64,000 bases of DNA, taken from NCBI RefSeq assembly GCF_008001235.1, contig NZ_CP040751.1, positions 1,843,001 to 1,907,000 on the forward strand, read 5' to 3'. Position 1 is the first letter of the stretch. Every line of letters begins with the position of its first letter. Of the stretch, positions 2,561 through 57,435 are shown piece by piece. Source of the DNA: Salidesulfovibrio onnuriiensis. GTDB taxonomy: Bacteria > Desulfobacterota > Desulfovibrionia > Desulfovibrionales > Desulfovibrionaceae. Under the pieces are notes generated by a model, which saw only the letters and a program-made list of their open reading frames with translations, made no database searches and was not told the DNA's origin. The translations under genes were made by a program, and so were the position numbers.

Positions 2561-2563
2561 CGG

Positions 2564-3844
2564 CTACCTCCCGGCCAGATCGCGGTAGACATTGAGCACG
2601 TGCTCGGCCGCGATCTCCCATTTGGTGCGCTTGAGGGTTTCGAGTCCCTGCTGCACGATTTTCTCGGACCGTTCCGGGTTCCCCAGTATGTCGAGGATCT
2701 CCGCGGACAGCCGGTCCGTATCCCAGAAATCTATCTTGACCGCGCCGTCCAGCATTTCGGCCACTCCCGACTGCTTGGAGACGATGGCGGGCACGTTGTA
2801 GACCATGGCCTCCAGGGGCGTGATGCCGAAGGGTTCGGACACGCTGGGCATGACGTAGAGGTCGCTCATGGCGTAGATGCGCTCCACGTCCGTGCCGCGC
2901 ACGAAGCCCAGGAAATGGAACTTGTCCGCGATGCGCAGTTCGGCCATGCGCTCCACCATGCGGTTGAACATGTCGCCGGAACCGGCCATGGCGAAGCGTA
3001 CGTTCGGGTTCTTCTTGATCACCTTGGCGGCCGCCTCGACAAAGTAGTCCGGCCCCTTCTGGAAGGTGATGCGGCCCAGGAAGAGGACCAGCTTTTCCTT
3101 GAAGGGCTTTTCCACCCGCAGCTGGCCCAGGCGGCGCTCCTTGGAGACCGCGTTGTGCACCACCACGATCTTGTTCGGATCAATGCCGTAGCGCTTGACG
3201 ATGGTGTCCTTGGTGAAGTGGCTCACGGCGACGATGCGGTCCGCCGCCTCGAATCCGGCCCGTTCGATGTCGTAGATCTGCTGGTTCACGTGTTCGCCGC
3301 TGCGGTCGAATTCCAGGGCGTGGGCGTGCACCACCAGGGGCTTGCCCGAAACGCGCTTGGCCTCCATGCCCGCGGGGGCGGTCATCCAGTCGTGGGCGTG
3401 GATGACGTCGAATTCCTCCTGCCGGGCCATGTGGGCGCAGATCAGGCTGTAGCGCACGATCTCGGCCATGAGGTTGTTGCCGTAGCCGCCCGAGAAGTCG
3501 TATCCCTTCATGTTCAGGATGGCTTCCGAGGTCAGCAGTTCCTCCTGGTCCAGGATGCTCCTGTATTCCTTGTCCGTGATATAGGGCCGCAGGGGCGAGA
3601 GCACTTCGAGCATCTTGACCCGCTTTCGCAGCTCGCGGATGTCCTGGATGCCCACCGAGGCATGGACCCGGTTTGCCCCGAGCAGGGTCAGGTGTTTGCC
3701 TTCCTCGTCGGAATCGAGCCGGGGCAGCACGAAGGTGATGTCCACCCCGTGCTGGGCGAGTCCCTTGGTCAGACCCAGGCAGGCCGTGCCCAGGCCCCCG
3801 GAAATGAAGGGCGGGAACTCCCACCCGAACATGAGAACGCGCAT
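2564..3844 (-). CDS. Glycosyltransferase with starch-synthase-like N-domain (GT4/GT5 type)
   Basis: 426-residue GT-B glycosyltransferase. The N-terminus FGWEFPPFISGGLG (residues 6-19) matches the starch/glycogen synthase catalytic N-domain. The C-terminal domain has LFLGRITFQKGPDYF and the donor-site E-x7-E region EPFGITPLEAM. ATG at 3844 directly abuts the TAA of the debranching gene (3845-3847). With a GT3 synthase in the same operon, this may be a second alpha-glucan synthase, a maltose-1-phosphate synthase-like enzyme, or an enzyme making a primer or another glucoside. No signal peptide or membrane segment is seen. Confidence 0.75.
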   Translation of the reverse strand: MRVLMFGWEFPPFISGGLGTACLGLTKGLAQHGVDITFVLPRLDSDEEGKHLTLLGANRVHASVGIQDIRELRKRVKMLEVLSPLRPYITDKEYRSILDQEELLTSEAILNMKGYDFSGGYGNNLMAEIVRYSLICAHMARQEEFDVIHAHDWMTAPAGMEAKRVSGKPLVVHAHALEFDRSGEHVNQQIYDIERAGFEAADRIVAVSHFTKDTIVKRYGIDPNKIVVVHNAVSKERRLGQLRVEKPFKEKLVLFLGRITFQKGPDYFVEAAAKVIKKNPNVRFAMAGSGDMFNRMVERMAELRIADKFHFLGFVRGTDVERIYAMSDLYVMPSVSEPFGITPLEAMVYNVPAIVSKQSGVAEMLDGAVKIDFWDTDRLSAEILDILGNPERSEKIVQQGLETLKRTKWEIAAEHVLNVYRDLAGR

Positions 3845-5803
3845 TTATCGGCCTCCAAGAAGTTTGTTCAGGCGCACGGCCTCGGCCACGCTCCAGGCCT
3901 GGGCAATGCACCCGTTGGGCAGGTGTGGCGGGTTGCCGGTGTAGATTTCCGGCAGCGACGCGATTCCATAGTCAGCCGGGAATGATCGCAGAATTTCCTT
4001 GAAATATTTGCGCAGGAAGGCCTTGGCCTCCTTGATGTCCTCGGCCTGGCGCAGCATGGCCTCGCCGAAGTGGCCCGCCAGCCAGGGCCAGACCATGCCC
4101 TGGTGATAGGCCGAATCGCGGGCGTCCGAGTCGCCCTGGTAGAAGGGCGCGTACGACGGGTGGCGTGGGGAAAGGGTCCGCAGGCCGTACGGGGTCAGCA
4201 GGTGATCCTGCACGGTGGCCACCACGGCCCGCATCTGTTCCATGTTCAGCGTGGAATGGGGCAGGGAGACCGCGAAGATCTGGTTGGGCCGGATGGCCCG
4301 GTCGCAGCCGAATTTGCCGACAACGTCGCACAGGCAGTTGTCCTCGCGGTTCCAGAACCTGTCCGGGAAGCTGGCGGCCAGTTTGTCCGCCGATTCCCTG
4401 GCCCTGCGGACTGTTTCGTTGTCCTCGCCTTCCATCAGCTCCAGGTAGAAACGCAGTCCGTTGTACCACAGGGCGTTGATTTCCACGGCCGCTCCGTGGC
4501 GCGGGGTCACGGGCCTGCCGTAGGCCTGGGCGTCCATCCAGGTGAGCTGGGTGTGCTCGTTCCCGGCATGGAGGAGCCCGTCCTCGTGGATGGAGCACAG
4601 CGGCACCCTGCCGTCCAGGTGCGCCGCAATGATGCGTTCCAGGGCCGGGAGTATGCTTTTGCGCACGAATTCCCTGCTGCCCTTGGTCCGGAGGTATTCC
4701 TGCACGGCCCAGAAGAACCACAGGGAGGCGTCCACGGAGTTGTAGGCCAGGTGGTCGGATCGCTGGTCCAGGTAATTGGGCAGCAGGCCGTCGCGCTCCA
4801 GCCCGGCGTAGGCGGCCAGCACCTTTTCACCGAATTCGCGCCTGCCGCAGTGGAAGGTCAGCCCGGGCAGGGCGATCATGGTGTCGCGCCCCCATTCGCC
4901 GAACCAGTGGTAGCCCGCCACCACCGAGGAAAAGTCCGAGGCGTTGCGGATCAGGAACTGGTCGGCCGCGTACTGCAGGCCGCGCACGCTCTTGCTGCGG
5001 TCCTTGCAGCTCTCGTACAGGGCCTCGCGGCGCTTGATCTCCCTGCTCTTCAGCTTCACGAGATCACCGAGCTTCTCCACCGAGGCCGCGAAGATGACCG
5101 GCTTGCCCCGCTTGAGCTCCACCTCGAACATGCCCGGGCAGAACAGGTCTTCCTGGTAGTCGAATCCCCGGTTGCGCTCCTCCAGATATTCAACGTTGCG
5201 CATCCACTTGGGGCCGGGGAAGAATTCCGAGACGCGGCTGGTGCCCATGTACAGGGGCGGCATGCCCTTGTACGGCTCGATCTTGCATCCGTTTTTTTCG
5301 GGGAAGGTCTTGGGCCGCAGGAACAGGTTCTCGCGGGTCAGTCCGTGCACGTCGCGGTAGGCCAGCAGGGGGCGGATTCGCAGGGTGGGCGCCGTCTTGC
5401 CCTCGAGCATTTCGTAGCAGAGCAGCACCGTGTTCTGGCCGTGGACCATGAGCATGGTCTTGCGGATCAGCGCGTCGCCGATGCGGTAGGTCACCGTGGG
5501 GCAGAGGTCCTGTTCGAAGCCTTCCACGAACTGGTGGCCCGTGGGGTGGTAGACGCCGGGGTACTTGTTGGTGGACAGGAAGAATTCCTTTTCCCCGTCC
5601 GTGACCGAGACTTCCACCTTGGAGAGCAGCACGAAACGGCCGCGCGGCTTCCTGAGCGCCGCCACGAGCAGGCCGTGGTACTTGCGGGTATGACAATTGA
5701 TGACCGTGCTGGAGGCGTAGCCGCCGAGCCCGTTGGTGTCCAGCCACTCCTTGCGTGTCGCTGTTTCTGTATTGACGCACGCATCCCTGGGAATTCGAAG
5801 CAT
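3845..5803 (-). CDS. Glycogen debranching enzyme (amylo-alpha-1,6-glucosidase, GDE type)
   Basis: 652 residues. Removes alpha-1,6 branches from glycogen. The N-terminal GDE domain carries NGLGGYASSTV and CHTRKYHGLLVA. The C-terminal (alpha/alpha)6 catalytic domain carries HWFGEWGRDTMIALPGL with the catalytic-site Asp, and DSAYHQGMVWPWL near the end. ATG at 5803 was chosen because AAGGTGG sits 5-6 bases upstream. A longer reading from a TTG at 5869 lacks a ribosome site and is not conserved-looking. It is the first gene of the glycogen operon, with an AT-rich promoter region upstream. Confidence 0.88.
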   Translation of the reverse strand: MLRIPRDACVNTETATRKEWLDTNGLGGYASSTVINCHTRKYHGLLVAALRKPRGRFVLLSKVEVSVTDGEKEFFLSTNKYPGVYHPTGHQFVEGFEQDLCPTVTYRIGDALIRKTMLMVHGQNTVLLCYEMLEGKTAPTLRIRPLLAYRDVHGLTRENLFLRPKTFPEKNGCKIEPYKGMPPLYMGTSRVSEFFPGPKWMRNVEYLEERNRGFDYQEDLFCPGMFEVELKRGKPVIFAASVEKLGDLVKLKSREIKRREALYESCKDRSKSVRGLQYAADQFLIRNASDFSSVVAGYHWFGEWGRDTMIALPGLTFHCGRREFGEKVLAAYAGLERDGLLPNYLDQRSDHLAYNSVDASLWFFWAVQEYLRTKGSREFVRKSILPALERIIAAHLDGRVPLCSIHEDGLLHAGNEHTQLTWMDAQAYGRPVTPRHGAAVEINALWYNGLRFYLELMEGEDNETVRRARESADKLAASFPDRFWNREDNCLCDVVGKFGCDRAIRPNQIFAVSLPHSTLNMEQMRAVVATVQDHLLTPYGLRTLSPRHPSYAPFYQGDSDARDSAYHQGMVWPWLAGHFGEAMLRQAEDIKEAKAFLRKYFKEILRSFPADYGIASLPEIYTGNPPHLPNGCIAQAWSVAEAVRLNKLLGGR

Positions 5804-6170
5804 TTTTACCACCTTGAAGGAATGAAATTCAACAGGAAATGAACAGGAGAAGAGGCTTCTCACACTCAACTATAGATATAAGAATCAAAGCATATGCAAG
5901 TAAAAAGTGTGTAACTGGGGTTATAATGTGATTTGTTTTTTCCGGGCGGGGGAGAGAGCTGGGAAATGTTGCCGCAAGCGGCTTTTGGGACGGGAGAAAA
6001 AGAGGGAAACGACCAGTCCCTCCTGTTTCGGTTTAGCGGCGGATTTTTTTATCCGTTAAGAGGGATGGGATCAGAAGGCCCGGTCAACGACGTTCGAGAG
6101 ATAAACCGATCGTTGCGCCGGGCGTTCCGTTTGTGTGAGGGATGGCTTTAGGGAGTATGGGCCGTGCGGA
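5804..6170. promoter_or_regulatory. Intergenic region with glycogen-operon promoter
   Basis: 367 bases without a convincing gene. The part next to the debranching gene (about 5860-5945) is strikingly AT-rich for this genome and holds several TATA-like hexamers on the minus strand (for example TATATC and TATAGT near 5870-5880), so the operon promoter is probably there. The rest (5945-6170) is the downstream side of fdhD. Only weak hairpins are seen, such as GGGA/TCCC arms near 6004-6020 next to an A-rich stretch, so no firm terminator can be called. Confidence 0.4.
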
Positions 6171-6950
6171 TCAGTCCCGGACGCGCCACGCATGGCTGTA
6201 GATGTTCATGGACGTGCTCCGCAGGCGGCCCACCAGGGTGATGTCCCGCGTTTCGGCGAATTCCAGGGCCGAACTGGTGGCCACGGAAAAGCCGCACAGG
6301 ATGCCGATGCCGGCCATGGACGCCTTTTCCGCCAGCTCCAGGGCCAGGCGCGAGGAGAGCATGGCGATGGCCGCGTCCTCCAGACAGTCGGAATGCAGGG
6401 CCTGGCCCAGGGCCTTGTCGAATGCGTTGTGGCGTCCCACGTCCTCGCCAAAGGCCAGCATGTGGCCGTCCATGGTGAACAGGGCCGCCGCATGGGTGGC
6501 CCTGGTGCTCTGGAACAGGGCCTGGCGCTCCTCGAAGCGGTCCCGGAGCTCGAAGAGCCGTTGCACGGTAATGGTTTCCTCCCGCCGCACCCCGGCGCCC
6601 ATGAAGCGCACGTTCTCGCCGGGGGTCAGTTCCACGCGGGCCAGGGTGCTTTCCCCGCAGACCCTGAGATCCACGGAGCGGATGTCCCTGCGGGAGCGGA
6701 TCAGGCCCAGGGAAAGCAGCCGCCCGGCCACCAGGTTGTGGTCGTCGCCGGGCGTGCGCACGAAGCTGATGTTTTCATGGTCGCGCACCTTGAGCACCAG
6801 CGGCTCCTCCACGGCCACCAGCCCCGAGACCCGTTTCATGGCACCGTCGCTGAAGCGGTGCAGCTGCACGGACTCCAGGAATCTTCCGGTTCGTTGTTGT
6901 TCTTTGTCGCGCCTTGCCTTGGGAAACGCCGGATGTATCAGGGTGCTCAT
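6171..6950 (-). CDS. fdhD: FdhD-family formate dehydrogenase accessory protein, lacking the CxxC loop
   Basis: 259 residues. FdhD normally passes sulfur from IscS to the Mo/W-bis-PGD cofactor of formate dehydrogenase in the cytoplasm. Family landmarks are present: EEPLVLKVRDHE near residue 48, THAAALFTMDG, GEDVGRHNAFDKALG and the C-terminal MAGIGILCGFSVATSSALE. Where the family has a flexible CGxCG loop, this protein reads GAGVRREETITV, so both cysteines of the canonical transfer loop are absent. It follows fdhE by 9 bases at the end of the fdhA1B1 cluster. It may be a divergent FdhD or one that uses another cysteine (for example in LRVCGES). Confidence 0.85.
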   Translation of the reverse strand: MSTLIHPAFPKARRDKEQQRTGRFLESVQLHRFSDGAMKRVSGLVAVEEPLVLKVRDHENISFVRTPGDDHNLVAGRLLSLGLIRSRRDIRSVDLRVCGESTLARVELTPGENVRFMGAGVRREETITVQRLFELRDRFEERQALFQSTRATHAAALFTMDGHMLAFGEDVGRHNAFDKALGQALHSDCLEDAAIAMLSSRLALELAEKASMAGIGILCGFSVATSSALEFAETRDITLVGRLRSTSMNIYSHAWRVRD

Positions 6951-6959
6951 GTCCGTATC

Positions 6960-7867
6960 CTATGGCTTGAAGCTGTTCCAGGTCGTGGGGGCCATGGGGG
7001 TCAGGCTACGCTCCTGGGCGATCATGTCCAGGTGCATCAGTCCCATTTGCGCCGCGTCGAGCTGGGGAACCAGCTCGCATTCGCGCAGGTCGATGCACAG
7101 GCCGTAGGTGCCGCACTGGTGGCAGGCCTCGATGCGCTCGTGCTTTGCGCCGTCCACGAAAAAGATCTCCCGGGTCTTCTGGTCCGTATTGCCGCAGGCC
7201 GGGCAGGTGTCCCTGCGGTATTCCCATTCCAGGCTGCACAGGGAACAGTGCAGGTGTTTCTTGCCCCCGCCGCCCACGAGATGCTCCAGGTCGTTGGGGT
7301 CGCGGCGGGAAAGAAAGCCGATGGAGGGCAGGCTGCCGCAGAACGGGCAGGTTCCCTGGTTCCATCGGCCCCTGGAAAACGACTCGTCGAGGCGGCCGGC
7401 CAGTGCGGCCAGGACCGGCCCGGCGATAGCGTCCACAATGGTGAAAAGGACAGAGGGTGGAGTGCCGTCCATTTTCTCGGAGGTGTTTTCGAATTGCTTC
7501 AGGTCGCCGTCAAGTCGCGCCTCGACGAGTCGCGCCAGCGTCTCGCGGTCGAACGTCGCCTTCCCTTTCCCGGGCCAGGAGTCGTCCGGGATCAGTTTCC
7601 TGAGCAGGGGAAGCAGCTCCCGAGAGGAAGCCAGCAGAGATTCCTTGAGCCGGTCGCATCCCTCACCCGCCATGACATGGACGCCTTCCATGAGCCGCGC
7701 CTCGTCCACGGCCGGGGGCGGGGGCCTTCCTGGCCGAACCGCTGGGCAAGCTCCGCCTGTTTTTCCAGCAGCGGGGAAAAGGTCCGGACCAGCTCCCCGT
7801 AAACGGGTTTGGCGTTGGTGATGGCTTCCAGGGTCGCATGGACGGTTCCGGGGTCAAACGTGGTCAT
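6960..7867 (-). CDS. fdhE: FdhE-type formate dehydrogenase maturation protein, apparent frameshift
   Basis: Read as one gene of 302 codons plus stop if one base is restored. The first part (ATG 7867, MTTFDPGTVHATLEAIT...) runs in one frame to the G5-C-G5 tract at 7714-7724. The rest, from about VDEARLMEGVHVMAG, continues in another frame to 6960. The C-terminal half has four CxxC pairs (CPFC, CSLC, CPAC, CHQC), the rubredoxin-like metal sites of FdhE, which binds apo-FDH during maturation. The total span of 908 bases is one short of a multiple of three, fitting a single lost base. It lies between fdhB1 and fdhD. Real inactivation and homopolymer error cannot be separated here. Confidence 0.8.
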
Positions 7868-7900
7868 GGAGGTCTCCGATCCTGTCTTTGCGGGAGGTTC

Positions 7901-7954: not shown

Positions 7955-8692
7955 CTATGCGTTTTTAGTCATTTTCGTGATGGGGCTGGCCAGCTTGGCA
8001 AGGAACCGCTTGCGGTCCATGCCCGCGGGGGCCTCGGCCACGGCAAAGCTGTGGTAGTGCTCGGGCTTGTCCGTGAGCAGGTATATGACGTTGACGTCAT
8101 CGGGGTCGGCCAGCATGGCCTCGGGGAACCGCTCCCTGACGACGGCGAGACGCTTTTCGGCCAGCTTGAGCATGTCCTCGCGCTCGCCGAAGTTCATGGT
8201 GCCCGTGGGGCAGGCCTTGACGCAGGACGGGAGCAGGCCCTTGTGGACGCGGTCGTTGCACATGGTGCACTTGGCCAGGAGCCCGGTCTTCTCGTTGCGG
8301 CGCGGGATGTTGTAGGGGCATGATTCGCGGATCTCCTCGAACTGCTCCGCGCTGAAGGCCTTGGTGCCGTCCGTGTACAGGATGGCACCGGTCTTTTCGT
8401 CCTGGAGGATGGCCCCCTCGTGGTAGAGGTCGCCGGTTTCCTTGCAGGGCGCGATCTCGCAGTGGCGGCACTGGTCCGGGAAGAAGTTCCAGCGGACCAC
8501 GTCGCCGTCCAGGCGCTCGCTGAAGCGCACCAGCTTGTAGTTGTTGGGATTCAGGTCCTGCGGGTTCTGGTGGCTGCCCCAGCCGAATTGCTTGGTCTTG
8601 TTGGCGGGCAGTTCGTGCCATTCCTTGCAGGCCAGCTGACAGCCTCGGCAGGCGGTGCAGCGGGACGTGTCTATCAGAAACGCTTTGGGCAT
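7955..8692 (-). CDS. fdhB: Formate dehydrogenase iron-sulfur (beta) subunit, copy 1
   Basis: 245 residues. Electron-transfer subunit of the periplasmic formate dehydrogenase; it passes electrons from FdhA to cytochrome c3-type acceptors. Ferredoxin-like cysteine motifs are visible: CTACRGCQLAC at the N-terminus, CRHCEIAPC, then CTMCNDRVHKGLLPSCVKACP. It has no Tat signal of its own and should be co-exported with FdhA1. ATG at 8692 follows AAGGAGA. It lies 47 bases downstream of fdhA1, separated by a strong hairpin. It is almost identical by eye to copy 2 at 12150-12887. Confidence 0.93.
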   Translation of the reverse strand: MPKAFLIDTSRCTACRGCQLACKEWHELPANKTKQFGWGSHQNPQDLNPNNYKLVRFSERLDGDVVRWNFFPDQCRHCEIAPCKETGDLYHEGAILQDEKTGAILYTDGTKAFSAEQFEEIRESCPYNIPRRNEKTGLLAKCTMCNDRVHKGLLPSCVKACPTGTMNFGEREDMLKLAEKRLAVVRERFPEAMLADPDDVNVIYLLTDKPEHYHSFAVAEAPAGMDRKRFLAKLASPITKMTKNA

Positions 8693-8739: not shown

Positions 8740-11700
8740 TTAGGTTGCAAGCTCGGTGAGCTTTTCGGCCTTGCGGATGTTCACGCAGCAGGCCTTGTAC
8801 TCCGGAATGGTGGTGTTGGGGTCGCCCACCGACGGCGTGAGCCTGTTGGTGGAATCCCCGGACCCCGGAGTGGTCCAGCCGAAGCAGTACGGCATGCCGA
8901 TTTCGTGGATGATCCGGCCATGGACCTTGAGGGGCCGCATGCGGATGGTGACCATGGCGATGGCCTCCACCCTGCCGCGAATGCTTTCGACGATCACGCC
9001 TTCGCCGTTTTTGATGCCCTTTTCCTTGGCCAGTTCCGGGCTCATCTCCACATAGAGCTGGGGCTCGGCTTCCAGCAGGTTGGGCACGTTGCGGGTCTCC
9101 CCGCCGCCGCACCAGTGCTCGGTGAGGCTGTAGGTGGTCAGCACGATGGGGTATTTCGGGTCCGCCGGAGGGGCCAGGACATCCGGGGCGCTGGTGGCGA
9201 ATTTGTAGCAGGGGCTGTGAAGCTGCTTGGAGAACAGGTTCTTGTTCACCGGGGTCTCGGCCGGTTCGTAGTGCTCGGGGAACGGGCCGTCCTGCCTGCC
9301 CGGGCCGAAGAGATGGCCCATGCCGTGCGTGTGCATTATGAAGGGCAGCTTGCCCTGGCCCGTGGCCAGGGGCGGCCAGCCGCCGTCGGGCACGTCACCG
9401 ATCCATTTGCCGTCCTTCCACTCGATGACCGCCTTGTCCGGGTTGAACGGCTTCCCGTTCAGGTCCACGGAGGCGCGGTTGTAGAGGATGCGCCGGTTTA
9501 CGGGCCAGCACCACGACCAGTTGGGGTACAGGCCGATCCTGGCCTGCATCTCGGTCTGGGACGGGTCGCGCCGCAGGGACTTGTTGCCTTCCTCCTCGGT
9601 CCAACTGCCCGCGTAGAGCCAGTTCAGGCTCGCGGTGGAACCGTCGTCGGCCAGGGCCGCGAACGAGGGCACCTGCTGTCCCTTGCCGTATTTCTTGCCC
9701 TTGTATTCGGCATCCCTTGTGAAACGTCCGTTGATGCGCTGGCAGAGATCCTCGGGGTCGTATCTGTCGGGCCAGTCCAGCTTGAGCAGGGCCTCGGGCA
9801 GGGCGCCGCCTTCCTTTGCATACAGGGCGCGGAGCCTGCCGAGTATGGAGATGTACATTTCCCCGAACGGGCGCGCCTTGAACTGTGGCTTGACGCTTTT
9901 GTCGTGCCAGAGGAGCCAGCGGCCCGAGTTGGTCACCGAGCCGGTCTTTTCCAGCCGGTGGGCCGAGGGCAACAGGAAGAACTCGGTCTTGATCTTCTTG
10001 GGATCCGCGCCGGGCCGGTGCCAGTTGTCCGTGGTTTCGGAGTTGTGCAGCTCGGAGCAGACGACCCAGTCCAGGTTGTCCATGGCCTTGCGGATCTTGT
10101 TGGTGTTGGGAACGCTGTTCATGGGGTTCAGGCCCATGAAGAAGCCGCCCGTGATTTCTCCCCGGTACATGCGGTCGAACAGGAACAGGTAGGAGTAGTC
10201 CTCGCCCTTTTCGACCTTGGGCAGCAGCTCGTAGCAGAAGCCGTTTTCCCTGGTGGCGTTTTCGCCGTACCAGGCCTTGAGCAGGCTGGTGAAGTACTGG
10301 GGCTTGTGCTGCCACCAGTTGGCCGACTGCGGGTCGTGGCTGACCGGGGTATTGGCCTTGTTGTAGGCGTCGTAGGAGGGCCAGTCCGCCCTGGGCATGG
10401 CCATGTAGCCGGGCAGGATGTGGTAGAGCATGGCGTGGTCCGTGGACCCCTGCACGTTGGGTTCGCCGCGCAGGGCGTTGATGCCGCCGCCCGCGATGCC
10501 GATGTTGCCGAGCAGGAGCTGGATGATGCCGGAGGAGCGGATGTTCTGCACGCCCACGGTATGCTGGGTCCAGCCCAGTGCGTAGAGGATGGTTCCGGCC
10601 TTTGTGCCCGTGCCGGTGGCGCTGTATGCCTCGTACACGCGCAGCAGGTTCTTTTCCGATACGCCGGTGGTGGCGGAGACCTTGTCCAGTCCGTAGCGGG
10701 AATAGTGCTTTTTGAGCAGCTGGAACACGCAGCGGGGGTGCTTGAGGGACTTGTCCCGCTTGGGCACGCCCCTGGAGTCCAGCTCCAGGTCCCACTTGCT
10801 TTTGTCGTAGGTCCGGGTCTTGGGGTCGTAGCCCGCGAACAGGCCGTCCTTGAACCCGAATTCCTTGCCCACGATGAGCGAGGCGTTGGTGTATTCCACC
10901 ACATAGTCCTTGAAGTACTTCTCGTTGTCGAGGATGTACTTGATCATGCCGCCCAGGAAGGCGATGTCCGTGCCGGACCGCAGGGGGACATGGAAATCGG
11001 CGCGCGCCGAGGTGCGCGAGAATTTGGGGTCCACGTGCATGACCGTGGCTCCCTTGTCCTTGGCCCGCAGCACCCATTTGAAGGAAATGGGGTGGTGCTC
11101 GGCCGCGTTGCTGCCCATGATGAGGATGGAATCGGCGTTCTTGATGTCGATCCAGTGGTTGGTCATGGCCCCGCGCCCGAAGGATTCGCCGAGGGCCGCC
11201 ACCGTGGAGCTGTGGCAGACGCGGGCCTGGTGGTCCATGTGCACGACGCCGAGCCCACGCGCGAACTGGTGGGTCAGGGCGCATTCCTCGTTGCTGGCGT
11301 GGGAGGTGCCCAGCAGGAACATGGATTCGAGGCGGTTGACCGTCTGGCCCGCCTTGTTGTGGGTGATGAATTCCTTGTCGCGGGTGTCCTTGACCCGCCG
11401 GGCGATGCGCTCGATGATCCAGTCCCAGCTCTTTTCCTCCCACTTGTCGCTGTAGGGCGCGCGGTACATGGGCTTCTGCACCCTGTGGTGGCTGGTGGTC
11501 ATGGTGAACATCGCGGCTCCCTTCGCACAGAGAGCGCCTTCGTTGATGGGGTAGTCCGGGTCGCCTTCGACGCCCACCAGCTTTCCGTTCCTGACGTACC
11601 CTATCGCGTAACAGCTGACAGAGCAGAACGGGCAGACAGTGAAAACCTCTTTGGCCCCGTCGATCTTCAGATCGGCGGCGTAGGCCCGCACCGGCGTGAG

Positions 11701-11781
11701 GTTCACGCCAAGCTGTGCCAGGGAAAGGCACGCGGCCGACGAGCCTGCAAGCTTGAGAAAGCTTCGGCGGTCACATTTCAT
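8740..11781 (-). CDS. fdhA: Periplasmic formate dehydrogenase catalytic (alpha) subunit, cysteine form, copy 1
   Basis: 1013 residues. Oxidises formate (or reduces CO2) at a Mo/W-bis-PGD centre. The N-terminus MKCDRRSFLK is a Tat signal, followed by a hydrophobic stretch to about residue 35. The [4Fe-4S] cysteines are C50, C53, C57 and C85. The active-site segment is HQARVCHSSTVAALG, so residue 189, which coordinates the metal, is Cys (TGC at 11215-11217). In copy 2 the same position is UGA/Sec. ATG at 11781 is chosen for the Tat motif and for AAGGAGG six bases upstream. A longer reading frame extends upstream without support. It pairs with fdhB1 and is followed by fdhE and fdhD. Confidence 0.95.
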   Translation of the reverse strand: MKCDRRSFLKLAGSSAACLSLAQLGVNLTPVRAYAADLKIDGAKEVFTVCPFCSVSCYAIGYVRNGKLVGVEGDPDYPINEGALCAKGAAMFTMTTSHHRVQKPMYRAPYSDKWEEKSWDWIIERIARRVKDTRDKEFITHNKAGQTVNRLESMFLLGTSHASNEECALTHQFARGLGVVHMDHQARVCHSSTVAALGESFGRGAMTNHWIDIKNADSILIMGSNAAEHHPISFKWVLRAKDKGATVMHVDPKFSRTSARADFHVPLRSGTDIAFLGGMIKYILDNEKYFKDYVVEYTNASLIVGKEFGFKDGLFAGYDPKTRTYDKSKWDLELDSRGVPKRDKSLKHPRCVFQLLKKHYSRYGLDKVSATTGVSEKNLLRVYEAYSATGTGTKAGTILYALGWTQHTVGVQNIRSSGIIQLLLGNIGIAGGGINALRGEPNVQGSTDHAMLYHILPGYMAMPRADWPSYDAYNKANTPVSHDPQSANWWQHKPQYFTSLLKAWYGENATRENGFCYELLPKVEKGEDYSYLFLFDRMYRGEITGGFFMGLNPMNSVPNTNKIRKAMDNLDWVVCSELHNSETTDNWHRPGADPKKIKTEFFLLPSAHRLEKTGSVTNSGRWLLWHDKSVKPQFKARPFGEMYISILGRLRALYAKEGGALPEALLKLDWPDRYDPEDLCQRINGRFTRDAEYKGKKYGKGQQVPSFAALADDGSTASLNWLYAGSWTEEEGNKSLRRDPSQTEMQARIGLYPNWSWCWPVNRRILYNRASVDLNGKPFNPDKAVIEWKDGKWIGDVPDGGWPPLATGQGKLPFIMHTHGMGHLFGPGRQDGPFPEHYEPAETPVNKNLFSKQLHSPCYKFATSAPDVLAPPADPKYPIVLTTYSLTEHWCGGGETRNVPNLLEAEPQLYVEMSPELAKEKGIKNGEGVIVESIRGRVEAIAMVTIRMRPLKVHGRIIHEIGMPYCFGWTTPGSGDSTNRLTPSVGDPNTTIPEYKACCVNIRKAEKLTELAT

Positions 11782-11854
11782 GAATGGCCTCCTTGTTCGT
11801 GCAGGGCCTTTGCAGCCGCTGCGGAATACAGAACCAAGCATCAGACGAGGCCTA

Positions 11855-11882
11855 GACATAACATTAAATCCAATTATAACAA
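11855..11882 (-). promoter_or_regulatory. Putative fdhA1 promoter
   Basis: Minus-strand hexamers TTGTTA (11882-11877) and TATGTC (11860-11855) with a 16-base spacer, about 75 bases before the fdhA1 ATG. The same layout (TTGAAA, 16 bases, TAAGCT) is found before fdhA2 in a conserved AT-rich block. The assignment rests on position and on the match between the two copies. Confidence 0.45.
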
Positions 11883-11903
11883 TATGTTATTATTAACATA
11901 TTG
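11880..11903. promoter_or_regulatory. 24-bp operator-like palindrome upstream of fdhA1
   Basis: Perfect inverted repeat CAATATGTTA-TTAT-TAACATATTG, centred about 110 bases before the fdhA1 start and touching the upstream edge of the putative -35 hexamer. The core ATATGTTA-N4-TAACATAT recurs before fdhA2 at 16080-16099. The ModE-like regulator encoded at 16111-16485 is the obvious candidate binder (inference). Confidence 0.65.
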
Positions 11904-12086
11904 GAAGTGTGGCGGAAGCTTTCCCTGATCGGGCGGGCCGGGGAATGGCCCAATATGCCGCAACCATTATCGAATCGGCGGACCTGTCCCCCCAATGCGG
12001 GCATGGCGCGGCGGGCGGTTTTCGGGACGCCCGTGCGATGTTGGGGGCGGTCGGCCATGGGTTCTCCTGTCCGGTTTCGCGGGGGT

Positions 12087-12113
12087 GGGCCGCCCGCCCC
12101 GTGCGGACGGCCC
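12087..12113 (-). repeat. Hairpin downstream of fdhB2
   Basis: GGGCCGCCCGC / GCGGACGGCCC arms with a 5-base loop, 37 bases after the fdhB2 stop. It is the counterpart of the hairpin at 7901-7927 and shows that the duplication covered 3' non-coding sequence. Confidence 0.6.
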
Positions 12114-12149
12114 TGATTCCCCGTTGATGTGACTTGCACTCGTTTCGGT

Positions 12150-12887
12150 TTATGCGTTTTCGGTCATCTTGGTGACGGGCCCGGCCAGCCTGGCAAGGAA
12201 TTGCTTGCGGTCCATGCCCGCGGGGGCCTCGGCCACGGCGAATCCGTGATAGTTCTCGGGCTTGTCCGTAAGCAGGTAGATGACGTTGACGTCCTCGGGG
12301 TCGGCCAGCATGGCCTCGGGGAACCGTTCCCTGACTGCGGCGAGGCGCTTTTCGGCCAGCTTGAGCATGTCCTCGCGCTCGCCGAAGTTCATGGTGCCCG
12401 TGGGACAGGCCTTGACGCAGGAGGGGAGCAGACCCTTGTGGACGCGGTCGTTGCACATGGTGCATTTGGCCATGAGCCCGGTTTCCTCGTTGCGGCGCGG
12501 GATGTTGTAGGGGCAGGCCTCGCGGATTTCCTCGAACTGCTCCGCGCTGAAGGCCGTGGTCCCGTCCGTGAACAGGATGGCGCCGGTCTTCTCGTCCTGG
12601 AGGATGGCTCCCTCGTGATAGAGGTCGCCGGTTTCCTTGCAGGGCGCGATCTCGCAGTGGCGGCACTGGTCCGGGAAGAAATTCCAGCGGATCTCGCCGT
12701 CCTCCAGGTGTTCGCTGAAGCGCACCAGCTTGTAGTTGTTGGGGTTCAGGTCCTGTGGGTTCTGGTGGCTGCCCCAGCCGAACTGGGTGGTCTTGTTGGC
12801 GGGCAGTTCGTGCCATTCCTTGCAGGCGATCTGGCAGCCGCGGCAGGCGGTGCAGCGGGACGTGTCTATCAGAAACGATTTGGGCAT
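12150..12887 (-). CDS. fdhB: Formate dehydrogenase iron-sulfur (beta) subunit, copy 2
   Basis: 245 residues, the same length as copy 1 and differing only at scattered positions (for example MPKSFLIDT against MPKAFLIDT). All the cysteine motifs for the [4Fe-4S] clusters are kept: CTACRGCQIAC, CRHCEIAPC, CTMCNDRVHKGLLPSCVKACP. It should accept electrons from FdhA2 and be exported with it. ATG at 12887 follows AAGGAGA. The frame is intact even though its fdhA2 partner is frameshifted, so either the damage is recent or the frameshift is a sequencing error. Confidence 0.93.
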   Translation of the reverse strand: MPKSFLIDTSRCTACRGCQIACKEWHELPANKTTQFGWGSHQNPQDLNPNNYKLVRFSEHLEDGEIRWNFFPDQCRHCEIAPCKETGDLYHEGAILQDEKTGAILFTDGTTAFSAEQFEEIREACPYNIPRRNEETGLMAKCTMCNDRVHKGLLPSCVKACPTGTMNFGEREDMLKLAEKRLAAVRERFPEAMLADPEDVNVIYLLTDKPENYHGFAVAEAPAGMDRKQFLARLAGPVTKMTENA

Positions 12888-12903
12888 GTCGTTCTCCTTG
12901 GAT

Positions 12904-12927
12904 CCGGGCGGGGCACGCCCCGCCCGG
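12904..12927 (-). repeat. fdhA2-fdhB2 intercistronic hairpin
   Basis: Perfect 10-bp inverted repeat CCGGGCGGGG / CCCCGCCCGG with a CACG loop between fdhA2 and fdhB2. It is the counterpart of 8709-8731. The stem is kept while the loop and one base pair differ, which suggests the structure itself is maintained. Confidence 0.6.
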
Positions 12928-12935
12928 TTTGCCGT

Positions 12936-15900
12936 TTAGGTTGCGAGCTCGGTGAGCTTTTCGGCCTTGCGGATGTTCACGCAGCATGCCTTGAATTCCG
13001 GAATTGTGGTGTTGGGGTCGCCCACGAACGGCGTGAGCCGGTTGGTGGAGTCCCCGGTTCCGGGAGTCGTCCAGCCGAAGCAGAACGGCATGCCGATTTC
13101 GTGGATGATCCGGCCGTGAACCTTGAGGGGCCGCATGCGGATGGTGACCATGGCGATGGCCTCCACCTTGCCGCGAATGCTCTCGACGATCACGCCTTCA
13201 CCGTTTTGGATGCCCTTTTCCCTGGCCAGTTCCGGGCTCATCTCCACATAGAGCTGGGGCTCGGCTTCCAGCAGGTTGGGCACGTTGCGGGTTTCCCCGC
13301 CGCCGCACCAGTGCTCGGTCACGCTGTAGGTGGTCAGCACGATGGGGTATCTCGGGTCCGCGGGCTCGGCCAGCAGGTCCATGTCGCTGTCCACGAACTT
13401 GTAGACCGGGCTGTTGAGCTGCTTGGAGAACATGTTGGTCTTCACCGGGGTTTCCACCGGTTCGTAGTGTTCGGAGAACGGGCCGTCCTGCCTGCCCGGG
13501 CCGAACAGCTGGCCCAGGCCGTGCTTGTGCATGATGAAGGGGAGCCTGCCCTGGCCCGTGGCCATGGGCGGCCAGCCGCCGTCGGGCACGTCGCCGACCC
13601 ACTTGCCGTCCTTCCACTCGATGACCGCCTTGGCCTTGTTGTAGGGGACGCCCTTGGGGTCCACCGAGGCGCGGTTGTAGAGGATGCGGCGGTTTACGGG
13701 CCAGCACCATGCCCAGTTGGGATACAGGCCGATGCGCTCCTGCATGGGCGTCTGCGTGGTGCTGCGGCGCTTGGCCTTGTTGCCTTCCTCCTCGGTGTAG
13801 CTGCCCGCGTAGAGCCAGTTCAGGCTCGAGGTGGAGCCGTCGTCGGCCAGGGCCGCGAACGAAGGCACCTGCTGGCCCTTTCCGTACTTCTTGCCCTTGT
13901 ACTCGGCATCCCGGGTGAAGCGTCCGTTGATGCGCTGGCAGAGATCCTCGGGGTCGTACTTGTCTGGCCAGTCGAGCTTGAGCAGGGCCTCGGGCAGGGT
14001 GCCGCCTTCCTTGCGGTAGAGCTCGCGCACCCGGTTCATGAAGCCCACGAACATGTCGCCGAAGGGCTTGGCCTCGAAGGCGGGCCTGACGGTCTGGTAG
14101 TGCCAGAGCAGCCAGCGGCCCGAGTTGGTCACCGAGCCGTCCTTTTCCAGCCTGTGGGCCGAGGGCAGCAGGAAGACCTCGGTCTTGATCTTCTTGGGAT
14201 CAGCGCCGGGGCGGTGCCAGTTGTCCGTGGTCTCGGAATGGTGCAGCTCCGAGGTCACCAGCCAGTCCAGGTTGTCCAGCGCCTTCCGTATCTTGTTGGT
14301 GTTGGGCACGCTGTTCATGGGGTTCAGGCCGATGATGATGCCGCCCCTGATCTTGTTTCGGTACATGCGGTCGAAAAGGAACATGTAGGAATAGTCCTCG
14401 CCCTTTTCGATCTTGGGCAGCAGCTCGTAGCAGAAGCCGTTTTCCCTGGTGGCGTTCTCGCCGTACCAGGCCTTGAGCAGGCTGGCGAAGTACTTGGGCT
14501 TGTGCTGCCACCAGTTGGCCGACTGCGGGTCGTTGCTGACCGGGGTGTTGGCCTTGTTGTACTGGTCGAAGGTCTGCCACTCGTTGTGGGGCATGGCCAT
14601 GTAGCCCGGGATGATGTGGTAGAGCAGGGTGTGGTCCGTGGAGCCCTGGACGTTGGGTTCGCCGCGCAGGGCGTTGATGCCGCCGCCCGCGATGCCTATG
14701 TTGCCGAGAAGCAGCTGCAGGATGCCGGCGGAGCGGATGTTCTGCACGCCCACGGTGTGCTGGGTCCAGCCCAGGGCGTACATGATGGTGCCCGCCTTGT
14801 CCGGCCTGCCCGTGGCCGCGAAGGCCTTGTACACGCGCAGCAGGTTTTCGGCGGAAACGCCCGTGGTCGTGGAGACCTTGTCCAGGGTGTAGCGGGAATA
14901 ATGCTTTTTGAGCAGCTGAAACACGCAGCGGGGATGCCTGAGGGACTTGTCCCGCTTGGGCACGCCCTTGGAATCCAGTTCCAGGTTCCACTTGCTCTTG
15001 TCGTACTTTCTCGTCTTGGGGTCGTAGCCCGTGAACAGGCCGTCCTTGAACCCGAAGTCCTTGCCCACGATGAGCGAGGCGTTGGTGTAGTCCACCACAT
15101 AGTCCTTGAAGTACTTGTTCTCGTCCAGGATGTACTTGATCATGCCGCCCAGGAAGGCGATGTCCGTGCCGGACCGCAGGGGGACATGGAAGTCGGACCT
15201 GGACGACGTGCGCGAGAACTTGGGATCCACGTGCATGACCGTGGCCCCCTGTCCTTGGCTTCAAGCACCCACTTGAAGGAGATGGGGTGGTGTTCGGCAG
15301 CATTGCTGCCCATGATGAGGATGGAGTCGGCATTCTTGATGTCGATCCAGTGGTTGGTCATTGCGCCGCGTCCGAACGACTCTCCCAGAGCCGCAACTGT
15401 GGCGCTGTGTCAGATACGGGCCTGGTGGTCCATGTGGACGACGCCCAGGCTTCTCATGGCTTGGTGCGCGAGCGCGCATTCCTCGTTGCCCGCGTGGGAG
15501 GTGCCCAGCAGGAACATGGATTCGAGGCGGTTGACCGTGTCTCCCCTTTCGTTCTTGAGGATCAGGTCCTTGTCGCGGGTGTCCTTGATGCGCCGCGCAA
15601 TGCGGTCCAGCATCCAGTCCCAGCTCTTCTCTTCCCACTTGTCGCTGTAGGGCGCGCGGTAGAGCGGCTTCTGCAGCCGGTGGTGGCTGGTGGTCATGGT
15701 CAGCATGGCCGCGCCCTTGGCGCACAGGGAACCCTGGTTGATGGGATAGTCCGGGTCGCCCTCGGTGCTCACCAGCTTGCCGTCCTTGACGCTGGCGATG
15801 ATGTGGCAGCTCACCGAGCAGAACGGACAGACCGTGATCACTTCCTTGGCGCCGTCGATCTTCAGGCCCTTGGCATAGGCCTTGACCGGCGTGAGATTCA

Positions 15901-15976
15901 CGCCGAGCTGGGCCAGGGAGAGACACGCGGCCGACGAGCCTGCAAGCTTGAGAAAGCTTCGGCGGTCACATTTCAT
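12936..15976 (-). CDS. fdhA: Periplasmic formate dehydrogenase catalytic subunit, selenocysteine form, copy 2, with apparent frameshift
   Basis: Paralogue of fdhA1. ATG 15976 gives the same Tat start MKCDRRSFLKLAGSSA. The frame reads to a UGA at 15412-15410, at codon 189, in the context HQARI-UGA-HSATVAALG. This is the metal-ligand position that is Cys in copy 1, so UGA is read as selenocysteine. The frame then continues through MTNHWIDIKNADS to a G5 tract (15245-15249 on the plus strand), where a one-base loss shifts the frame. The remaining 766 residues from MHVDPKFSRTSS to 12936 are intact. The span is 3041 bases, exactly one less than fdhA1. Function depends on whether the lost base is real. 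Confidence 0.88.
15371..15412 (-). promoter_or_regulatory. Selenocysteine UGA with SECIS-like downstream segment
   Basis: The in-frame UGA (15412-15410, minus strand) is followed by CACAGCGCCACAGTTGCGGC and then TCTGGG. In my recollection this resembles the segment after the UGA of E. coli fdhF, including GTTGC and TCTG at the same distances. A small CAG/CTG stem with a TTGCGGCT loop can form. That SelB recognises it is inference. Confidence 0.55.
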
Positions 15977-16080: not shown

Positions 16081-16099
16081 TATGTTAATTTTAACATAT
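16080..16099. promoter_or_regulatory. 20-bp operator-like palindrome upstream of fdhA2
   Basis: Perfect inverted repeat ATATGTTA-ATTT-TAACATAT, 12 bases after the stop of the ModE-like gene and centred about 113 bases before fdhA2. It is the same core and distance as at fdhA1. It sits just upstream of the putative -35, a position compatible with either activation or repression. Confidence 0.65.
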
Positions 16100-16110: not shown

Positions 16111-16485
16111 CTAAAACTTTTCCGGCTGGAACGGGAGACGGTCCTTGCCCGAGCGCAGGGCGTATTCCTCAACGTCCCGGAACCACTCGTCGAACTGCCG
16201 CGCCAGGTCCTGGCCGAAGTCCGTGAGCGTGCAGCCCGAGCGGCGGGAGGCGCCCCTGTTGATGAGCGGTCTGCCCAGGACCTCCTCGGTCTTCTTGAGC
16301 TTGCCCCAGGCGCCCCGGTAGGACATGCCCAGCTTTTCGGCGGCGGCCTTGATGGAGCCGCACAGCTCCACCTGGCGCAGGAGCATGAGCCTGCCCATGC
16401 CGAAGAGTACGCCCTCGTCGGTTTCAAACCAGAGATGCAGCCGCATGGTGGGGCCGATCATGTCGTTTCTTGCGATTTCGGACAT
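16111..16485 (-). CDS. ModE-like winged-helix regulator without molybdate-binding domain
   Basis: 124 residues, about half of full-length ModE. It matches the LysR-like DNA-binding N-domain of ModE: ELCGSIKAAAEKLGMSYRGA is the helix-turn-helix, followed by the wing segment NRGASRRSGCTLTDFG. The C-terminal MOP (molbindin) domains that sense molybdate are absent. ATG at 16485 follows GGAGGT and lies 5 bases after the upstream stop, so an earlier in-frame start inside the FmdE-fusion gene is rejected. Its gene lies between the molybdopterin protein and fdhA2, and the shared fdh palindromes are its likely targets (inference). Truncated ModE/TunR-type regulators are known in sulfate reducers. Confidence 0.82.
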   Translation of the reverse strand: MSEIARNDMIGPTMRLHLWFETDEGVLFGMGRLMLLRQVELCGSIKAAAEKLGMSYRGAWGKLKKTEEVLGRPLINRGASRRSGCTLTDFGQDLARQFDEWFRDVEEYALRSGKDRLPFQPEKF

Positions 16486-18269: not shown

Positions 18270-19163
18270 TCAGGAAGGACTCGTGACAAAGTCGCAGAGG
18301 TGGGCGAGCACCAGGGAGAAGATGTCGGCCTTGCGGTGGTTGAAGCGGAATTCCAATTCCTTGAGATACAGGGGGAAGCGCTGGCAGGAAATGCCCCGGA
18401 ACCGCTTGAGTTCCTCCAGGGCGTAGGGCCAGAACCGGGAATCGGACGCGTCGATGGCCGCGGGTTGGTCCGAGTCCCGGCGTATGCAGGCGTAGGGAAG
18501 GGTCTCGTTGCCGCACAGGAGCAGGGTGTCGTATTCCTTGTAGGGGTCGGAATAGACCAGGTGGCCGGTGCGCACCAGCCGGAGATGGAAATTGAGGTGG
18601 AAGTGGAACAGGGTCTCGGCCCGGAAGCTGGGAAGCAGGTCGATGAAGACCCAGTTCCCCTTGTCGATGACGCCGTAGACCGGGATGGTGTCCATGTGCA
18701 TGGTCGTGGGGCCGCCCGTGAGCCGGGGCCCCTTGAAGTAGGAATCCAGGCGGGTCTGCGGCCCGAGCAGCTGGGCCGAATCCGGCGCATGGGCCAGGAT
18801 GGCGAAACGGATGGTGGTGAAGGCCTTGAACACCGTGTTGTAGGAAAGATCCAGCTCGGCCACGGCCTGGCAGACGGTTTTCCGGGCCAGGAACAGCCGG
18901 ACCAGGGCCAGCCACTGGGTGCAGGACACGGCCCCGTTGTCCAGCCAGCGGCCAGCGAACCTGCGGAAGGTATAGCGGCAGGAGGCGCAGCGGAAGCGGT
19001 CGCCCTTGAGGTTGTATATCTTCTGGGTGCGGCACCGGGGGCAGACGGCCTCGCCCTCGGGCCAGCAGATGGAGAGCAGGTAGTCGCGGGCAAGGGATTC
19101 ATTGGACAGGAGAACCTCGAAGGCCTTTCCCGTGTGCAGGGCCTCCCGTTGTCCCTTGTTCAT
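18270..19163 (-). CDS. IS1595/ISXO2-like transposase-derived zinc-ribbon protein
   Basis: 297 residues. The N-terminus has a transposase-type zinc ribbon (C41, C44, C59, C62: CPRC...CASC). A DDE-fold region follows, with MHMDTIPVYGVIDKGNW, YSDPYKEYDTLLLCG and the C-terminal hallmark ELEFRFNHRK. Where IS1595 enzymes have N-x-I-E-S-F-W, this protein reads ASDSRFWPYALEELKR, so the third acidic residue appears lost. No terminal inverted repeats or target duplication were found. ATG 19163 is used; frame continuing upstream lacks similarity. It is either a decayed insertion sequence or a domesticated DNA-binding protein. Confidence 0.65.
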   Translation of the reverse strand: MNKGQREALHTGKAFEVLLSNESLARDYLLSICWPEGEAVCPRCRTQKIYNLKGDRFRCASCRYTFRRFAGRWLDNGAVSCTQWLALVRLFLARKTVCQAVAELDLSYNTVFKAFTTIRFAILAHAPDSAQLLGPQTRLDSYFKGPRLTGGPTTMHMDTIPVYGVIDKGNWVFIDLLPSFRAETLFHFHLNFHLRLVRTGHLVYSDPYKEYDTLLLCGNETLPYACIRRDSDQPAAIDASDSRFWPYALEELKRFRGISCQRFPLYLKELEFRFNHRKADIFSLVLAHLCDFVTSPS

Positions 19164-19395
19164 GTGGGTGTGCGCTTCCAAATCAGCCGACCTTGTTCGC
19201 TGTTTCGTGATTGTCCGACAGTAGGGCAGAGGCGGCTGTTCGGGAACTGCGACGCACTTGCCCAAGGTTAGGCACCGGCGTTGTGAGGGCCCTCGAACGG
19301 TCGCGGCCCTGTTGGTCGCTTTTTCGGGAAAAGGACGGTTGCCGGGCCTGGTCTCTTTGCCTATGGTGCGCGCAGCCAAACGCGAAGGAGCAGCA

Positions 19396-19863
19396 ATGAC
19401 GCCGGCAATCAACAAGGCCAAGCAGGCACGCATAAAATACACCGTCCATGAATACGACCACGATCCGTCTGCGGAATCCTATGGAGAAGAGGCGGCGGAG
19501 AAGCTCGGGGTCGCCCCGGAGCGGGTGTTCAAGACCCTGGTGGTCTCCGATGGAGGCAGGGGGCTGTTCGTCGCCGTGGTGCCGGTGCTGCGCCGCCTGG
19601 ACCTGAAGCTGCTGGCCAAGGCCGTGGGCGTGAAGAAGATGGTCATGGCCGAGGTGAAGCTGGTGGAGCGCACCACGGGGTACGTGGTGGGCGGTGTCAG
19701 CCCGCTGGGCCAGAAAAAGCAGCTGCCCACGGTCGTCGACGCCTCGGCCGAGGAACACGAAACCATTTTTGTCAGCGCCGGACGCCGGGGGCTGGACATC
19801 GAACTTTCGCCGCAGGACCTGGCTTTGCTCACGCGGGGCGGGTTTGCCGACATCGCCAGGTAG
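19396..19863 (+). CDS. YbaK/EbsC-family Cys-tRNA(Pro) deacylase
   Basis: 155 residues. Hydrolyses mischarged Cys-tRNA(Pro) in the cytoplasm. The fold is recognisable from EYDHDPSAESYGEEAAEKLG, VFKTLVV, VKKMVMAEVKLVERTTGYVVGGVSPLG (the family glycine-rich loop) and the C-terminal GLDIELSPQDLALLT. ATG 19396 follows GAAGGAGCAGCA. An earlier in-frame start at 19258 would add 46 residues with no ribosome site. It is divergently placed from the transposase-like gene, with 232 bases between them that show no other feature. Confidence 0.88.
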   Translation: MTPAINKAKQARIKYTVHEYDHDPSAESYGEEAAEKLGVAPERVFKTLVVSDGGRGLFVAVVPVLRRLDLKLLAKAVGVKKMVMAEVKLVERTTGYVVGGVSPLGQKKQLPTVVDASAEEHETIFVSAGRRGLDIELSPQDLALLTRGGFADIAR

Positions 19864-56653: not shown

Positions 56654-57435
56654 TCATGCTTCGGCGATTGCTTCCGCCAGGCTTCCCCAGTGGGCGGCGC
56701 CCAGGGCGCCGTTCATGTCCGGGTCGCCGGGGATGAGCATTTCCCTGCCCGGGCCGCAGCCGAGCCGTTCCCGCAGGAGCTTGACCATGCACGGGTTGCG
56801 GGCCACCCCCCCGCGAAGACCAGGGGGAAGGTCAGGTTCACCCGGCCGAGCATGTTCACGGTCCGTTTGGCTATGGAGCAGTGCAGGGCCAGGGCGATGT
56901 TTTCCGGGGCCACCCCCTGGGCCATGAGCGAGGTGGCTTCGGTCTCGGCAAAGACCGTGCACATGCTGTTGATGGTGGGCGGGTCATTGCCCTCAAGGGC
57001 GTAGCCGCCGAATTCCTCCACCGGGATCTGGAAGATGGTGGCCGTGTACTCCAGGAATTTTCCGGTTCCCGCGGCGCAGCGGTCGTTCATCTCGAACTTG
57101 CCGACTTTGCCGCCGGGCAGCAGGGCGATGGCCTTGGTGTCCTGGCCGCCGATGTCGAGCACCGTGCGCGCCTCGGGAAAGCAGCGCGTCACCCCCAGAG
57201 CGTGGGCCTTGATCTCGGTGATGGTTTCCACGGGGACGTCCAGTCCCAGGCCCTCCACGAGCTTGCGCCCGTAGCCCGTGGCCACGATCCTGCGCGGGGA
57301 GACGTCCCGGAGCAGCCTGCGGCACTGGCGCACGGGATCAAAGGTGGTGGGCAGGCGCTCTTGCCGCACCACCGTATTGTTCTCCATGATCACCAGTTCC
57401 ATGGAACGGGAGCCGATGTCGATTCCAGCTATCAT
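56654..57435 (-). CDS. Activator ATPase of the 2-hydroxyacyl-CoA dehydratase/double-cubane family, apparent frameshift
   Basis: ASKHA-fold ATPase that donates electrons, driven by ATP hydrolysis, to its partner. Phosphate loops IDIGSRSMELV and VLDIGGQDTKAI and the two cluster-ligating cysteines C120 (NDRCAAGTGKF) and C159 (NSMCTVFAETEATSL) are seen. At the C/G7 tract 56806-56812 the frame shifts; one restored base gives VFAGGVARNPCMVKLL, the family C-terminal motif, ending EAIAEA at 56654, about 260 residues. ATG 57435. It lies 12 bases after its partner gene. Damage may be real or a homopolymer error. Confidence 0.83.

Follow-up and report, generated by a model that had tools for sequence, protein, structure and literature searches.

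The window analysed here is a stretch of 64,000 nucleotides (nt) from Salidesulfovibrio onnuriiensis (contig NZ_CP040751.1, positions 1,843,001 to 1,907,000), whose genome is a single contig of 3,886,744 bases. The window carries two copies of a formate dehydrogenase (FDH) gene pair, with fdhA encoding the catalytic subunit and fdhB the electron-transfer subunit. Codon 189 of one fdhA is a cysteine (Cys) codon, and that of the other is an in-frame UGA, at which selenocysteine (Sec) would be inserted. The genes of the two pairs, in window coordinates, are as follows.

8740..11781, minus strand: fdhA1, Cys189 form of the formate dehydrogenase catalytic subunit, 1013 amino acids (aa); TIGR01553 1340.8 bits, cut-off 814.2
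11215..11217, minus strand: codon 189 of fdhA1, TGC (Cys), read from the sequence and the alignment
7955..8692, minus strand: fdhB1, 4Fe-4S electron-transfer subunit, 245 aa; Fer4_11 125.1 bits
12936..15976, minus strand: fdhA2, Sec form, frame broken by one base missing near 15250; distal part (766 aa) at 1010.5 bits to TIGR01553, cut-off 814.2
15410..15412, minus strand: codon 189 of fdhA2, in-frame UGA; a stop codon stands here in 96 of 114 aligned FdhA rows
12150..12887, minus strand: fdhB2, electron-transfer subunit of the Sec copy; Fer4_11 126.5 bits, 92.1% nucleotide identity to fdhB1

An earlier sequence-only reading of this DNA had described two tandem fdhAB pairs, and this layout is borne out on the minus strand (fdhA1 11781-8740, fdhB1 8692-7955, fdhA2 from 15976, fdhB2 12887-12150). 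Alignment of the copies likewise confirms TGC (11217-11215) against TGA (15412-15410) at codon 189, in matching flanking context. The copies do not align base for base as that reading had it, since fdhA2 is one base short near 15250; this is the single indel between the two fdhA coding regions. Identity is 86.4% at the nucleotide level and 84-85% in protein. No further FdhA of this kind was found in the genome, where the next match is 28% identical over partial length.

The cut-off of TIGR01553, the FDH-N-type catalytic-subunit family, is exceeded by copy 1 and by the distal part of copy 2. Among solved structures fdhA1 is best matched by D. vulgaris-type FdhAB chains, and its nearest named matches are from Pseudodesulfovibrio and from metagenome-assembled genomes (MAGs) labelled Desulfovibrio. 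The active-site Sec or Cys followed by His, and the conserved Arg438, which we take to have a catalytic role, are present in both copies, as seen in the copy alignment and in that of copy 1 with D. vulgaris FdhAB. A twin-arginine motif, CDRRSFLK, was read by eye from the alignment in both copies. Both FdhB proteins score over the Fer4_11 cut-off, and FdhB2 falls below that of the NCBIfam FDH-beta family TIGR01582 (145.6 vs 334.7 bits).

On the combined sequence evidence the UGA of fdhA2 is a genuine Sec codon, because the Sec machinery is present, the hairpin downstream of the UGA is nearly fixed, and synonymous diversity is low in the Sec copies. The sequence-only reading had proposed to look for selA, selB and selC, and held that a genome devoid of Sec machinery would speak against selenocysteine. 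Present are selA (555.1 bits), selB (402.2), selD (327.6) and tRNA-Sec (84.6), all over their family cut-offs, and the UGA is moreover conserved in orthologs. The selD gene carries an in-frame TGA of its own. Across a set of 36 genomes of the genus, SelA is found in every genome and tRNA-Sec in 35, the exception (G023) being 82% complete. In all 64 distinct Sec sequences the stop at the Sec position is TGA, and its recurrence among the aligned rows exceeds chance.

15377..15393, minus strand: apical hairpin of the selenocysteine insertion sequence (SECIS), CGGCUCU-GGG-AGAGUCG, nt 20-36 counted from the U of UGA; fold, conservation and synonymous constraint

A check for a SECIS at the Sec copy, also suggested earlier, reveals a constrained hairpin downstream of the UGA in the 64 distinct Sec sequences. 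With the form CGGCUCU-GGN-AGAGUCG, six of its seven pairs are identical in all 64 and the seventh in 63; in fdhA2 both the UGA and the hairpin are intact. Synonymous diversity over codons 195-210 is 0.048 in 26 Sec rows, the minimum among 998 windows of 16 codons (mean of the Sec rows 0.354), whereas the same codons in 14 Cys rows have a value of 0.454, above the Cys mean of 0.365. G035, G008 and G033 are not part of this profile. The SECIS is therefore under constraint in the Sec copies, and this constraint is absent in the Cys copies. The hairpin is too uniform for covariation to be counted, and the evidence consists of the constraint and its absence from the Cys copies. An Rfam scan of the window at the gathering threshold matched no family.

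The missing base of fdhA2 has a counterpart in an accessory gene downstream of the Cys copy.

15243..15253, minus strand: 1-nt frame break in fdhA2, GACAGGGGGCC; copy alignment, ortholog alignment and a frame-tracking hidden Markov model (HMM)
6960..7876, minus strand: fdhE-like accessory gene, start approximate; FdhE_central 30.5 bits, cut-off 27, below NCBIfam cut-offs

At the break copy 1 reads GACAAGGGAGCC and copy 2 GACAGGGGGCC. The frame is lost at about codon 242, and as sequenced a full-length protein is impossible even with Sec insertion; the intact reading frame that marks a selenoprotein gene is thus lacking from fdhA2 in the present genome sequence. The fdhE-like gene has a 1-nt break near 7714, in CCCCCGCCCCC. 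Neither break appears in the sequence-only reading. The frame-tracking HMM was run over 464 kb of the genome (the window and 20 stretches of 20 kb) and gave 85 same-strand frame changes, of which eight, those of fdhA2 and the fdhE-like gene included, lack an upstream-frame stop in the 60 nt next to the junction. A run of at least five G or C lies within 10 nt of the junction in seven of these eight, and in five of the six outside the operon. Among random windows, 4.1% of those of 30 nt and 17.4% of those of 120 nt contain such a run. One other break was called near 56811, at a seven-G run in the gene at window 56662-58719 (minus strand).

Homopolymer sequencing errors are the most likely cause of both breaks in the operon, likelier than decay because both are at G/C runs, like seven of the eight breaks in the 464 kb. 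If the breaks were real, the Sec copy would be decaying in this strain and the Cys copy would have taken over. Two breaks in one operon would fit such decay, as would the related genomes G028 and G027, which have a Cys copy only, that of G027 at the same locus as the G016 tandem. We regard decay as unlikely, however, as fdhA2 has no other indel relative to copy 1, the 774 residues matched downstream of the break contain no stop, and its UGA and hairpin persist. Among the 28 genus Sec rows other than fdhA2, 26 are 3039 nt long with an unbroken frame. The two others (G003, G022) are broken elsewhere, likely as artefacts; SelA is split too in G003, and G022 has an N and a repeated stretch. One of the 26 unbroken genes (G014, L197) has an extra in-frame TAG at codon 185, four codons before the UGA.

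The sequence-only reading took the two copies for a Sec/Cys isoenzyme pair made by local duplication. The pair is real, but a recent duplication is not borne out, as the two FdhA forms are separate clades older than most species of the genus. This was seen in a tree of 114 FdhA rows, from which the columns around codon 189 were excluded. Its rows include those from 80 loci, with L024-L028 and L030-L032 omitted (the genus set covers the genus) and L064 entered as two copies; L072, L074, L092 and L100 were omitted because none of them gave a 900-residue match, and G021, truncated at a contig end, is in no tree. The 14 genus Cys rows form one clade (Shimodaira-Hasegawa-like approximate likelihood ratio test, SH-aLRT, 99). 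Its sister clade (SH-aLRT 91) consists of 28 genus Sec rows and L029, and the Sec row of G035 falls outside the genus Sec clade. Five changes of Sec/Cys state are needed over the whole tree. Each third of fdhA, taken separately, gives the same division into Sec and Cys forms, with one change each. A recent local duplication is rejected on the two genus-wide clades and on this same division in each third. For the Cys FdhA of the genus a single origin is most likely, predating most of the species.

The distribution of the two forms in the 36 genomes is as follows: both in 11, Cys only in three (G015, G027, G028), Sec only in 19 (G035, at 71% identity, and the contig-cut G021 included) and neither in three (G001, G004, G024), so that 14 genomes have a Cys FdhA. 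Tandem order is found in two of the 11 genomes with both forms (G000, G016), and is ambiguous by contig ends in G023. In the remaining eight the copies are on different contigs or at least 0.38 Mb apart. As the forms make up two genus-wide clades and are mostly unlinked, Sec and Cys FdhA appear to predate most species of the genus, and their adjacency would either be ancient and have been lost since, or have come about later. In a Spirochaetes MAG (L064, 1635-4661 and 5761-8787) Cys and Sec FdhA of this family also form a tandem pair, with a separate origin on the tree.

The partner subunit shows another pattern. For FdhB, five changes of Sec/Cys partner type are required, and the FdhB proteins of G000, G016 and G017 group by genome. 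In G000 the FdhB pair is 92.1% identical, versus 85.6% and 81.9% to the best orthologs; the corresponding values are 87.4 versus 85.0 and 81.9 in G016, and 84.2 versus 79.0 and 81.8 in G017. This within-genome likeness was not seen in the other seven of the 10 genomes compared (those with both forms, without G023). The simplest reading is that FdhB may have undergone gene conversion while FdhA was kept apart.

The distinct FdhA clades in each gene third, next to FdhB proteins alike within G000, G016 and G017, suggest selection for distinct catalytic subunits. On this view catalytic task, metal or oxygen tolerance might set the two enzymes apart, in place of a selenium backup, with selenium supply incidental. 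We hold this to be fairly unlikely, as catalytic residues and the kind of partner subunit are the same in both copies.

A second position distinguishes the Cys forms. All 18 Cys rows among the 114 have Ser at residue 192, where the 96 Sec rows have Ala (61) or Pro (35). A Cys-motif scan was carried out on 395 genomes of the phylum, with residue 192 free and HQAR required before the Cys, so that Cys forms in other contexts are missed. It gave 21 places in 20 genomes. Twelve are FdhA of the same family, the window's own among them, and five are not FDH (L223, L227, L229, L236, L237). The remaining four belong to a distant subfamily of about 29-33% identity (L221, L222, L234, L235; CHSTT) and were omitted from the count. 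Of the 11 Cys rows so added, eight have Ser, one Ala (L231) and two Pro (L240, L241); one added row (L238) is at distance 0 from an earlier one (L075). Ser192 is thus found in 26 of 29 Cys rows and in none of the 96 Sec rows. A rule without exceptions was abandoned after the wider scan. In eight supported independent pairs on the tree the trend is in the same direction in seven, opposite in none and unchanged in one (sign test, median p 0.016, range 0.008-0.031).

If release from SECIS pairing were the only cause, a return to one residue would not be expected. A review (PMC13397495) reports that changing Sec to Cys strongly affects activity in D. vulgaris-type FdhAB. The structure PDB 9qm0, a FdhAB of this type, reads CHSPT, a Cys without the Ser, and is presumably an engineered Sec-to-Cys form. 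We predict that Ser192 would restore activity lost by the bare Sec-to-Cys change, and the pattern offers a direct test of activity loss in engineered Sec-to-Cys formate dehydrogenases. A literature search, covering only part of the literature, gave nothing evidently on compensatory change at Sec-to-Cys sites of FDH.

Upstream of each fdhA is a palindrome, and the one of fdhA2 is followed outward by two further genes.

16081..16098, no strand: palindrome TATGTTAAAATTAACATA, some 120 nt before fdhA2; genome pattern scan and upstream comparison
11883..11900, no strand: palindrome TATGTTAATAATAACATA, some 120 nt before fdhA1; the sole other genome site at no more than one mismatch
16111..16485, minus strand: ModE-like small DNA-binding protein, 124 aa, possible local regulator; HTH_1 42.3 bits
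16490..18241, minus strand: fusion of FmdE and a molybdopterin-binding domain (MoCF_biosynth), adjoining the ModE-like gene; domain matches

With up to one mismatch, the pattern TRTGTTANNNNTAACAYA has two sites in the 3.89 Mb genome, one before each fdhA, and the two promoters have similar flanks around it. Over the 36 genomes there are 41 sites. The exact sites, 19 in 18 genomes, are all upstream of fdhA, and of the one-mismatch sites eight are upstream of fdhA and 14 elsewhere, versus 42 matches for a reversed control pattern. Upstream regions were compared for 27 of 29 Sec rows (without G008 and G029) and 13 of 14 Cys rows (without G023, contig end), and a good site lies at -122 to -130 in 24 of the 27 Sec copies. 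Scans for promoters and terminators did not exceed the yield of shuffled sequence.

The 124-aa protein is called only ModE-like because its score to the ModE repressor domain (TIGR00637, ModE_repress) is 56.7 bits, against a cut-off of 98.5. Of the 27 Sec loci L174-L200, 19 have a similar gene called next to fdhA, as does the window; in G016 and G027 it is downstream of fdhB. TunR, like ModE, is a metal-oxyanion regulator. The ModE-like protein is predicted to bind the palindrome. As the same palindrome is found at both promoters, transcriptional control of the two fdhA genes is probably shared, perhaps by molybdenum/tungsten (Mo/W) status.

Selenium might instead regulate the two genes oppositely at transcription, as reported for Treponema primitia, where a selenium-dependent change of up to 40-fold is described (PMC6288185). 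This is quite unlikely here in view of the same palindrome and similar flanks at both promoters; no sequence sign of reciprocal selenium control was noticed either, though a search for such a signal was impossible.

Taken together, it is fairly probable from these sequence comparisons that the locus encodes a Sec/Cys pair of periplasmic W/Mo FdhAB, with the Cys copy an old selenium-independent backup, control shared and related to Mo/W, and the break in copy 2 a sequencing error. One accessory set (fdhE-like and fdhD-like genes) and the ModE-like gene lie beside the pair. The ModE-like protein would bind both palindromes and answer to Mo/W status, with both genes co-transcribed. With selenium present the UGA would be read as Sec, and copy 2 would yield the faster enzyme. 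With selenium absent translation of copy 2 would end at codon 189, and copy 1 would supply a slower, selenium-independent enzyme. The selenium-dependent choice could thus act at translation, via UGA termination. The regulator, its ligand and the backup role are what we infer from the locus.

Several observations weigh against this reading. The tandem genome G016 has no close palindrome match before either copy, so shared control is not general, and the Sec copies of G005 and G035 also lack the palindrome among the 27 compared. Upstream of the Cys copies of G006, G022 and G034, and of those of three of the four CysB genomes, no site scores above shuffled sequence, and the site of CysB_G017 is only partial, at -234. 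G015, G027 and G028 keep the Cys copy alone, and loss of the Sec copy therefore happens (G027 is 81% complete). Copy 2 and the fdhE-like gene are broken as sequenced, and a pair of breaks within a single operon would fit decay as well; the six breaks outside the operon are HMM calls. Folded as a single sequence, the SECIS does not stand out at 48 nt (z 0.19) and does so only modestly at 54 nt (z -1.89).

A broader proposal is tentative, and we hold it to be somewhat less probable than not. It would combine a rule, that Cys usually comes with a Ser192 restoring lost activity, with a tuned tandem device in which FdhA escapes the conversion that homogenises FdhB, and one dedicated regulator has just two genomic sites.

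The order of genes on the minus strand is the FmdE fusion, the ModE-like gene, the two head-to-tail fdhA-fdhB pairs, and then the fdhE-like and fdhD-like genes.

6171..6950, minus strand: fdhD-like gene, accessory sulfurtransferase family; PF02634 168.9 bits, cut-off 27.2, below NCBIfam cut-offs

An IS1595-type transposase gene adjoins the operon (window 18273-19442, minus strand). Relatives of it occur in the regions flanking the fdh genes in G016, G027 and G028 and in none of the other loci compared, and the transposase may have helped to rearrange the fdh locus. Glycogen-type genes (GH57, a glycosyltransferase and a debranching enzyme) are at window 1361-5869 on the minus strand.

The NiFeSe and NiFe hydrogenases of Desulfovibrio likewise give a cell a Sec and a Cys enzyme for a single reaction, but they are more diverged than the two fdhA copies of the window, at 84-85% protein identity. 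The FdhF of Acetobacterium woodii is a cytoplasmic, FDH-H-type subunit of the hydrogen-dependent CO2 reductase (HDCR), and FdhF1 and FdhF2 are both presumably within the HDCR gene cluster. Like the window pair these are two formate dehydrogenase subunits that differ at the Sec/Cys position; unlike them, the window pair is a periplasmic-type FdhAB of a sulfate reducer. FdhF1 (Cys) and FdhF2 (Sec) are 80% identical, and differential use by selenium is assumed without data (PMC6288185). The same source describes fdhFcys and fdhFsec of T. primitia, Sec and Cys paralogs in one genome as in the window; those have 14 genes between them and selenium-dependent transcripts, whereas the window pair is in tandem. 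The W-FdhAB of Desulfovibrio (Nitratidesulfovibrio) vulgaris (PDB 6sdr, 8cm4, 9qm0 and others) is of the same family over residues 3-1005, the active-site stretch included. It is a Sec enzyme, and 9qm0 has Cys at the Sec position and Pro where most natural Cys forms have Ser. The available text of the Sec-to-Cys survey of Zhang and co-workers 2006 (PMC1794560) has no mention of a Ser change or a shared promoter site. In the part of the literature searched, no paper joined Pseudodesulfovibrio, formate dehydrogenase and selenocysteine.

Sec/Cys FDH pairs are thus already known (A. woodii and T. primitia, PMC6288185), and some features of the present pair would be new. These are a palindrome unique in the genome to the two copies, near a ModE-like gene, the Ser192 trend, and FdhB seemingly homogenised with FdhA distinct. 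The benefit of selenium to formate dehydrogenase is described as an open question in a review (PMC10779653). Natural Sec and Cys versions this close, present in the same cell with a nearly identical partner subunit and a common promoter site, provide a clean natural comparison.

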